64,000 bases of DNA from Acetobacter farinalis (lineage in GTDB: Bacteria > Pseudomonadota > Alphaproteobacteria > Acetobacterales > Acetobacteraceae), in contig NZ_WOTF01000003.1 of NCBI RefSeq assembly GCF_011516935.1, forward strand, positions 124,001-188,000, written 5' to 3'. Position 1 is the first letter of the stretch. Every line of letters begins with the position of its first letter. The notes under the pieces are model-generated. The model saw nothing but the letters and a program-made list of their open reading frames with translations, was not told where the DNA came from and did no database searches. A program made the translations under genes and the position numbers. Shown here piece after piece: positions 9,921 to 62,600 of this stretch.

Positions 9921-10132
9921 GATACACGCGGATCCTTACGAACTCAGGGCAGCAAACTCAGGGCAGCAGAGAGCATAAAGCGCCCGAAAGCCGCCTGACC
10001 TGCCAGACACCCTTCAGGAGACCACCCTGCCGGCGGGGATATGCCACAGTTCGCCCGCGGCATGAACCTCTTTGCACACACCCCCATTCACGCCTAGACA
10101 CGGACATCGCCCCACCCGTCAGCGTGAATGTC

Positions 10133-35079: not shown

Positions 35080-35119
35080 CCTTCAGTCGCCTGAGAAAAC
35101 CTTCAGTCGCCTGAGAATA
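35080..35119 (+). repeat. Tandem 20-base repeat in the clpB leader
   Basis: Two adjacent copies of a 20-base unit (CCTTCAGTCGCCTGAGAAAA and the same ending in ATA) lie at 35080-35099 and 35100-35119, just before the clpB ribosome binding site. Each copy contains TCAG-TCGC-CTGA, a small inverted repeat. They differ at one base. Confidence 0.85.
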
Positions 35120-60218: not shown

Positions 60219-60536
60219 CTGGCGCTACTTCCTCTTCAAACAGATACAGGTCAGACAGACCAGCCCGGTTCAGACCAACCCGCGCCGGACCTTGCCATGT
60301 TCTTCTGCCACCAGTCAGGGGCAGCCTGCAAATTCAGGAACCATGGCATGACCTGCGCGATTGACCGGGGGCTGAATGAGCACGGCTGCATTCGCCTTGG
60401 CAGGGAGGCGCTGGGGATCGCCTTTTCGGCACGCGGCAAGGTAAAGCCCGAACGGACATTGCCCCTCCCTCTGCCCATGACGCCGGGCCGGCACCGGCCA
60501 CGCGCAACCAGGTCCGGACGTCTGCCCGGCCTTAAA
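60219..60536. other. Intergenic region between gpt and the sugar dehydrogenase
   Basis: These 318 bases presumably hold the gpt promoter. Short reading frames in both strands have no ribosome binding site or family resemblance, including a Trp-rich 32-codon frame at 60251-60349. I see no structured RNA or clear promoter elements. Confidence 0.4.
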
Positions 60537-61646
60537 TCAGCGCGCTTTTCCGTAAGTCAGACGATAAAGCGCGCCCGAAAGATCATCACTGATCAGCACA
60601 CTGCCATCCGCCATGGGCTGCACATCCACCGGTCGCCCCCATACCCTCTGCCCCTGCCGGAATCCGCTGACCAGCACCTCCGGAGTCTGCGGTTTTCCAT
60701 CCGCTCCAAAACGCACCGCCACAACCTGATACCCAACCAGAGCGCTGCTGTTCCATGAGCCATGCTCTGCAATCATCAAAGCTCCCTGCAGGGCTTTGGG
60801 AAACTGGGAGCCACCATAAAAACGTAACCCCAGCGCCGCGACATGCGCCCCCAGCAATAAAGCAGGTGGTGTAAACTCACGGCATGACCGCTGCATTCCG
60901 AACTCAGGATCGGGCAGAGTGCCCTGATGACAGTACGGATAGCCAAACGACTCCCCGGGGTGGCTCACCCTGTTCAGTTCATCAGAGGGAAGAGTATCTC
61001 CCAGATTATCGCGCCCGTTATCCGTAAACCATAATGCCCCGGTGCCCGGCTGCCATGTGAACCCGACCGTGTTGCGTATGCCAAACGCCACATCCTGCCG
61101 GTCTGTTCCGTCAGACCGCATACTCAGCAAGCGGCCAAAATCATGCCCAACGTCACAGATATTGCACGGTGCGCCAATAGGCACATACAGCCTGCCATCC
61201 GGGCCGAACGCAATGAATTTCCATGAATGATCGCCGCCCCGATACGGGAGGGAGTCCGCAACGGTCTGGGGCGCCGGGGGCGCGTCCAGATGGTGCTCAA
61301 TATCACGTAACACCACAATCCGGCGCGGCTCGGAGACATAGAGAGCCCCCTGATGGAACGCCACACCCACCGGCATATCCAGCCCCCGAGCAAGTGTGCG
61401 CACTTTTGTGGCCCGTCCGGCCTTATCTGTGGAAACGGCGTACACCACGCCCTGCCCCATCGTGCCGACAAAAACCGTGCCCTGCGCGCCAAGGGCGATT
61501 TCTCGCGCACCCGGAACCTGATCGGAAAAAACCGCGATATGAAACCCCGCAAGCACCCGAAGCTGATCAGGCTCCGGCGCCGCCAAAGCCGACCCGCCTC
61601 CCGATGCACCGGCAAGCAGGCTGAGTGCCACGGCACAAGAGCACAA
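60537..61646 (-). CDS. PQQ-dependent sugar dehydrogenase (sorbosone/soluble GDH type), start out of frame
   Basis: A periplasmic six-bladed beta-propeller of the soluble glucose/sorbosone dehydrogenase family. Family pieces are FHIAVFSDQVPGAREIALGAQGTVFVGT, GVAFHQGALYVSEPRRI, YRGGDHSWKFIAFGPDGRLYVPIG, FGIRNTVGFTWQPGTGALWFTDNGRDNLGDTLPSDELN and IAEHGSWNS. The open frame begins only at a TTG (61646) in mid signal peptide. A strong start lies upstream: GGGGG five bases before the ATG at 61668, coding MLKRDQCLVLL. It is out of frame because of two tandem octamers (61633-61648). Three copies would give one perfect signal peptide and the full protein. It may therefore be phase-variable, a pseudogene, or affected by a sequence error. 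Confidence 0.82.
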   Translation of the reverse strand: MCSCAVALSLLAGASGGGSALAAPEPDQLRVLAGFHIAVFSDQVPGAREIALGAQGTVFVGTMGQGVVYAVSTDKAGRATKVRTLARGLDMPVGVAFHQGALYVSEPRRIVVLRDIEHHLDAPPAPQTVADSLPYRGGDHSWKFIAFGPDGRLYVPIGAPCNICDVGHDFGRLLSMRSDGTDRQDVAFGIRNTVGFTWQPGTGALWFTDNGRDNLGDTLPSDELNRVSHPGESFGYPYCHQGTLPDPEFGMQRSCREFTPPALLLGAHVAALGLRFYGGSQFPKALQGALMIAEHGSWNSSALVGYQVVAVRFGADGKPQTPEVLVSGFRQGQRVWGRPVDVQPMADGSVLISDDLSGALYRLTYGKAR

Positions 61647-61648
61647 GA
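61633..61648 (-). repeat. Tandem octamer at the start of the sugar dehydrogenase gene
   Basis: Two perfect adjacent copies of TCTTGTGC (minus-strand reading; 61641-61648 then 61633-61640) fall within the signal-peptide codons. One copy changes the frame by eight bases. With two copies the upstream ATG is out of frame, and with three it would be in frame. Confidence 0.9.
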
Positions 61649-61668
61649 CACTGGTCCCTTTTCAGCAT

Positions 61669-61883
61669 GGCACCCCCTTTTTCCTTCAATAAAGACCGCC
61701 GCGTTATTCTGACACAAACATTACTCTTCGCACTTTACAAAATAAATACATCAGACTTTCCAGTGTAGAACGCGCATCTGCACACCCTCACATGGTCTGG
61801 ATGCCTGCACTTGAGAGTTGCCCACAGCATCAGAGTGGCCCATAAAGATAGAATAGGGAGGGTTTTACTGACACTCCTTCATA
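61669..61883. other. Divergent promoter region, sugar dehydrogenase / yfdX
   Basis: About 215 bases lie between the predicted ATG of the dehydrogenase and the YfdX gene, AT-rich around 61730-61770. No ORF or RNA gene is supported. Promoters for both directions are expected here. Confidence 0.4.
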
Positions 61884-62600
61884 ATGAACAAACGGACATT
61901 TACAATGCGCATGAAAACTTCTCTGGCCGTTCTGGCCTTTCTGACCGCAGCACCGGTTGTCGCTCACGCCGATTCCGTTCACACCAAGTGGGAAAAGTTC
62001 AAGGCAGGCCACGCCTTCCGCCAGCTGTCCGCCGATGGCGAACGCGCCATGGCAGATATCGCCAAAGCGCGTGAAACGCTTGCCTCCGGCAAGACCGATG
62101 CAGCCATTCCTGCCCTGTACGATGCCAAAAAACGCCTGACAGCCGCCGACAAGGCCGGGAAGAAATTTGATGCGGCGGAAAGCCAGCTTCAGCCCGCCCC
62201 GCAGCATCCGGCCTCTCCCTCCCATACGCCCGTAACCACGCCGACCACGTGGATTCCTGTGGGTGGTGAATTTATTGCCTCTGAAACTCTGGCTCCGGAA
62301 AAGAAGGCCGCCATTGCCACAGCAAACGGCCAGCTTAAAACCGGACAGCCCGATCAGGCCGCCCAGACCATGGAAGTTGTCGGTGAAGACGCTGATTTCA
62401 TTGTCGCCCTCGCCCCGCTGGCCCAGACACAGGGCGCGCTGAACCGCGCAACAGTCTTCGCGGAAGGCAAGCACGCGCCGGAAGCCGTCGCAGCGCTTGA
62501 CGAGATCCTCAATGGTCTTGTCTTCGTCTCAGAAGGGTTCATCGCTACAGCCATCCCCGACCACGGGCACGGCAAGACTCCCGCAAAATCCAAGAACTAA
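61884..62600 (+). CDS. YfdX family exported protein
   Basis: A 238-residue precursor. A signal peptide (MKTSLAVLAFLTAAPVVAHA) is preceded by up to eight extra residues, and starts at 61902 or 61908 are also possible. The mature protein matches the YfdX pattern: two helical halves with DIAKARETLASGKTDAAIPALYDAKKRLTAADKA and IATANGQLKTGQPDQAAQTMEVVGEDADFIVALAPLAQT, ending EILNGLVFVSEGF. E. coli YfdX is an acid-stress protein under EvgA control with periplasmic chaperone-like behaviour. A role in acid tolerance would suit an acetic acid bacterium but is inference. The C-terminus is His/Lys-rich. Confidence 0.85.
   Translation: MNKRTFTMRMKTSLAVLAFLTAAPVVAHADSVHTKWEKFKAGHAFRQLSADGERAMADIAKARETLASGKTDAAIPALYDAKKRLTAADKAGKKFDAAESQLQPAPQHPASPSHTPVTTPTTWIPVGGEFIASETLAPEKKAAIATANGQLKTGQPDQAAQTMEVVGEDADFIVALAPLAQTQGALNRATVFAEGKHAPEAVAALDEILNGLVFVSEGFIATAIPDHGHGKTPAKSKN

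Follow-up and report, generated by a model that had tools for sequence, protein, structure and literature searches.

CcPDH of Coprinopsis cinerea, an AA12 pyranose dehydrogenase with a six-bladed propeller (6jt5), is the nearest fold to the enzyme considered here, and the residues with which it contacts PQQ have been described (PMC6881789). Low-copy tandem repeats that convert between alleles and act as switches are represented by the 6-bp repeats of Salmonella mutL (PMC2955026), and hyper-mutable tandem repeats are reported for A. pasteurianus (cited through PMC4686929). We analyzed a 64,000-nucleotide stretch of an Acetobacter genome (the window), in which the start of a sugar dehydrogenase gene carries a short tandem repeat that an earlier note had proposed as an on–off switch. 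The unusual feature of this locus is not the repeat but a frame break at a start with such a strong Shine-Dalgarno sequence. Its most likely origin is a commonplace small deletion in a gene that is falling into disuse; a built-in switch is the less likely explanation.

Results

On the minus strand the start region reads AAAAAGGGGGTGCC ATG CTG AAA AGG GAC CAG TGT CTT GTG CTC TTG TGC, and together with the gene body it comprises the following features.

61671..61680, minus strand: AAAGGGGGTG, a strong Shine-Dalgarno serving the ATG (–14.5 kcal/mol as a duplex with CACCUCCUUU)
61666..61668, minus strand: ATG, the probable native start, out of frame with the enzyme (relatives begin at the equivalent ATG)
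61567..61668, minus strand: 33-codon out-of-frame open reading frame, MLKRDQCLVLLCRGTQPACRCIGRRVGFGGAGA (TGA stop at 61569-61567)
61633..61648, minus strand: two perfect tandem copies of TCTTGTGC (61648-61641 and 61640-61633)
61644..61646, minus strand: TTG, the sole start codon that the open enzyme frame offers ahead of the hydrophobic core (its upstream Shine-Dalgarno, AAAAGGGA, is weak)
60537..61646, minus strand: putative GSDH/AA12-like PQQ-type sugar dehydrogenase, 369 amino acids, uninterrupted (Pfam GSDH 4.4e-15; nearest fold CcPDH 6jt5)

The enzyme frame is +1 relative to the frame of ATG 61668 and is missed by one base; a stop codon closes it at 61664-61662, and from 61661 onward it stays open. 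The earlier note had described an out-of-frame ATG with a strong Shine-Dalgarno, and this is confirmed, the 33-codon frame missing the 369-amino acid enzyme frame; the strain as assembled is indeed out of frame here. Several details required correction: the GGGGG lies 4 nt from the ATG and not five bases, and the TTG sits in the first octamer copy in transcription order, not in the second. There are two perfect octamer copies as had been stated, but the array overlaps the CLVLL codons instead of following directly after them. The arithmetic of the proposal holds, in that ATG 61668 and TTG 61646 are 22 nt apart and one added octamer (22 + 8 = 30 nt) joins the ATG to the enzyme frame.

The two candidate starts differ in the strength of their ribosome sites. 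Only about 0.1% of random 20-mers form a duplex as strong as that upstream of ATG 61668 (–14.5 kcal/mol), while roughly 1 in 10 match the –6.9 kcal/mol of AAAAGGGA upstream of TTG 61646. Shine-Dalgarno strength, position, and comparison with relatives support ATG 61668 as the likely native start. Scans of the region for promoters and terminators returned hits at chance level.

One way to bridge the two frames would be a programmed +1 shift of the ribosome at the AAA-AGG that closely follows the ATG. The geometry is right for it: relative to the ATG the enzyme is read in the +1 frame, which is open from 61661 onward, pairing at AAA can move forward by one base, and the next codon, AGG, is probably rare. 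Against it, the site has neither a stop codon nor a stimulator, and the relatives are in frame, so that the arrangement is not conserved. To our knowledge nothing comparable exists in the GSDH family, which counts further against this reading, and we give it almost no weight.

The host genome is a 2.94 Mb draft in 74 contigs; among named species, A. malorum and A. cerevisiae are closest to it. Orthologues from these species (two from A. malorum and one from A. cerevisiae) are 78-80% identical to the window enzyme, and among the Acetobacter genomes compared none was closer than 80%. All three begin at an in-frame equivalent ATG with a Shine-Dalgarno and have a normal signal peptide with four basic residues in the n-region. 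In A. malorum and A. cerevisiae, 43 codons cover the span from the ATG to GFH; in the window this span is shorter by exactly 8 nt. Because the distance from the ATG to the enzyme is 8 nt longer in the sister species, the loss of one octamer-sized piece from the start region is plausible, although the same net 8-nt shift could have come from two separate events. The earlier note had asked how many octamers the relatives carry: their spacing is indeed longer by one unit, but the octamer repeat itself is absent there, and a three-copy ancestor is for that reason only conjectural.

These comparisons also bear on the possibility that the gene is functional from TTG 61646, its start having moved downstream; AAAAGGGA would then be where the ribosome binds, and MCSCAVALSLLAGASGGGSALA would be a short signal peptide. 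Consistent with this, an AAGGG stretch lies 9 nt upstream of the TTG, the hydrophobic core and a SALA-A-type site are still present in the TTG-started product, and the body is uninterrupted with a low dN/dS. However, the Shine-Dalgarno of ATG 61668 is far stronger and its open reading frame runs across the TTG, and the TTG-started product has zero basic n-region residues before the hydrophobic core, unlike the orthologues with resolved starts (L035 left out). We consider a working TTG start unlikely, though worth keeping in view.

The repeat itself is unexceptional. The window contains 2 perfect tandem 8-mers, compared with 1.33 in dinucleotide shuffles, and extrapolation from the density in 164 kb of Acetobacter sequence predicts about 4 tandem octamers per genome within 60 nt of a gene start; given the shuffle counts and this expectation, the TCTTGTGC repeat is not above chance. 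None of 5 related genomes has the tandem repeat, which is lacking in A. malorum, in A. cerevisiae, and in two other near genomes, and its own genome holds it at this single site and nowhere else. A search for the octamer context in viral contigs gave no match. The window also has perfect tandem duplications longer than the octamer, namely a 14-nt unit present twice (9941-9968) and a 20-nt unit in 1.9 copies (35080-35117).

Phase variation by slippage at the octamer array, with three copies on and two copies off, is the explanation that the earlier note had put forward. It draws on the 30-nt arithmetic, on a deficit of exactly one unit relative to the sister species, and on the precedents of Salmonella mutL (PMC2955026) and the hyper-mutable repeats reported for A. 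pasteurianus (PMC4686929). The array, however, consists of two copies only, which makes it a poor slippage substrate; its frequency is what chance would give, and relatives do not have it; and deleting one more copy still leaves the enzyme out of frame. A sugar dehydrogenase is moreover untypical for a switched surface trait. The proposal of a phase-variable enzyme is thus unsupported by a repeat that is two-copy, at chance level, and missing from both the relatives and the rest of the genome, and we judge slippage very unlikely. Still a little less probable, in our estimate, is the broader idea that the octamer is a genuine low-copy switch on the signal peptide that makes extracellular sugar oxidation heterogeneous within the population.

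We next consider the enzyme. It matches Pfam GSDH (PF07995) with 56.2 bits against a gathering score of 25 (E 4.4e-15), and its predicted structure is a beta-propeller (pLDDT 84.8, pTM 0.87) whose best fold matches are 6jt5 (E 1.9e-17), 6i1t, and 3a9g. With the TrAA12 profile (PF22807) it scores 24.5 bits, below the curated cut-off of 30.9, and for this reason we call it AA12-like only. By alignment, the window enzyme keeps His140, Arg191, Asn192, His268, His295, Trp298, Asn299, and Arg338, which correspond to PQQ contacts of CcPDH; a counterpart of CcPDH Arg273 was not located. Profile, propeller model, and PQQ-contact residues agree with the PQQ-type sugar dehydrogenase identity given in the earlier note, though its label "oxidase" does not fit a dehydrogenase, and the product is best described as a putative periplasmic GSDH/AA12-like PQQ-dependent sugar dehydrogenase. 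Plasmids searched for the dehydrogenase gene gave no match, and none of the phage families matches the enzyme. As a separate matter, pqqE is found in the same genome, and on this ground we reject gene loss through the absence of PQQ.

Although the dehydrogenase body contains no stop and no frameshift, it departs from its orthologues at two conserved positions.

60747..60749, minus strand: residue 300, Ser, after the HGSWN loop (Arg in 80/80 orthologues and 8/8 paralogues)
60993..60995, minus strand: residue 218, Thr (Asp in 76 orthologues, Glu in 4)

At otherwise invariant columns the window sequence shows 3 departures, tied for the most among 30 sequences. Replacement of the conserved Arg300 and Asp218 counts against an enzyme functional from the TTG, and the loss of conserved residues in the enzyme body counts likewise against phase variation. 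Measured against A. malorum, dN/dS is about 0.09, dS being near saturation. A relative-rate excess was mostly not significant, with xpt as the sole control gene; the outgroup orthologues of gpsA and YfdX lay outside the sequence stretches compared. The intact body, the low dN/dS, the kept PQQ contacts, and the presence of pqqE together mean that any inactivation must be recent or incomplete.

An error of sequencing or assembly near the start could produce the same frame break, and both the 74-contig draft state and the short runs of A and of G that follow the ATG ahead of the repeat would be in keeping with one. A scan of about 50 window genes against A. malorum revealed no other genuine frame break; it raised a few flags, nearly all from stop-to-stop readings overlapping neighbor genes, which we discounted as artefacts. 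On this evidence systematic indel errors are unlikely, and the lesion furthermore coincides with independent signs of wear in the body. The suggestion that an assembly lost one copy is accordingly not favored, and we rate an error at this site as improbable.

Next to the gene lies a decayed upp.

60297..60436, plus strand: upp remnant, coding for the C-terminal end of uracil phosphoribosyltransferase, cut short and frame-shifted (matched by related Upp proteins in tblastn, in frames +1 and +3)

A search of the whole genome found no intact upp. In five related genomes upp is kept, and it lies between the dehydrogenase position and xpt. In the two relatives that were read closely (G024 and G030) a DUF1275 gene accompanies upp; the DUF1275 gene, like intact upp, is gone from the window locus. 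These same genomes are the 2 of the 5 nearest that have no dehydrogenase at the syntenic place, from which we conclude that the gene is dispensable. There, a 170-amino acid open reading frame (MSISWGDFQAVVQLSAGLNVAILSF...) replaces the dehydrogenase between the DUF1275 and YfdX genes (L142 3376-3888 in G024; L143 1424-1936 in G030). The divergent neighbor of the dehydrogenase in the window is a YfdX-family protein (PF10938, 8.7e-36; 61884-62600, plus strand) whose position is conserved among relatives. Taken with the decayed neighbor, the changes at the arginine and at the site otherwise held by Asp or Glu fit loss of function better than they fit a maintained switch.

Discussion

We put the probability at roughly 0.55 that a small frame-breaking deletion has occurred in the start of a dispensable dehydrogenase, leaving a pseudogene at an early stage in a locus that is shrinking. 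In the sequence of events that we propose, the signal-peptide segment suffered a small deletion that left it a net 8 nt shorter than in the sister species; the piece lost was probably one octamer unit. The strong ATG would then attract ribosomes and yield a 33-amino acid dead-end peptide, and the enzyme would be made from TTG 61646 at a low level only, or perhaps not at all; whatever was made would have a signal peptide without a basic n-region. The changed conserved residues and the decay of upp would complete the picture of an early pseudogene that is probably losing its function in a locus that is contracting.

We favor this ordinary reading over switching. Should the gene simply be off, annotating the TTG-started enzyme would overstate the sugar-oxidizing repertoire of this Acetobacter. 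If the gene did switch, acetic acid bacteria would have in it a rare case of a metabolic trait under phase variation, with consequences for fermentation.

Comparison with described systems places the locus as follows. With CcPDH (6JT5) the window enzyme shares the six-bladed propeller type, the PQQ-contact residues, and the HGSWN loop typical of AA12, but the two are only about 20% identical and the window enzyme has neither a cytochrome nor a cellulose-binding domain. It differs from AA12 in having Ser in place of the Arg after HGSWN and in its TrAA12 profile score below the cut-off. Like phase-variable genes with tandem repeats in the coding start, the gene has a short repeat in its first codons whose unit is not a multiple of three; here, in contrast, the copies number only two, such an array is no more frequent than chance would give and is not conserved, and the gene body shows signs of wear. 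The 6-bp allele conversion of Salmonella mutL (PMC2955026) likewise depends on slippage in a short repeat of few copies, but that conversion was observed in culture and its 6-bp unit keeps the frame, whereas the present case is a frame break in an assembled sequence. The closest likeness is to incipient pseudogenes in reducing bacterial genomes, with which the locus has in common an intact-looking body, a start and frame broken relative to intact orthologues, dispensability among relatives, and a decayed neighbor (upp); a loss of expression and of function is probable for this gene.
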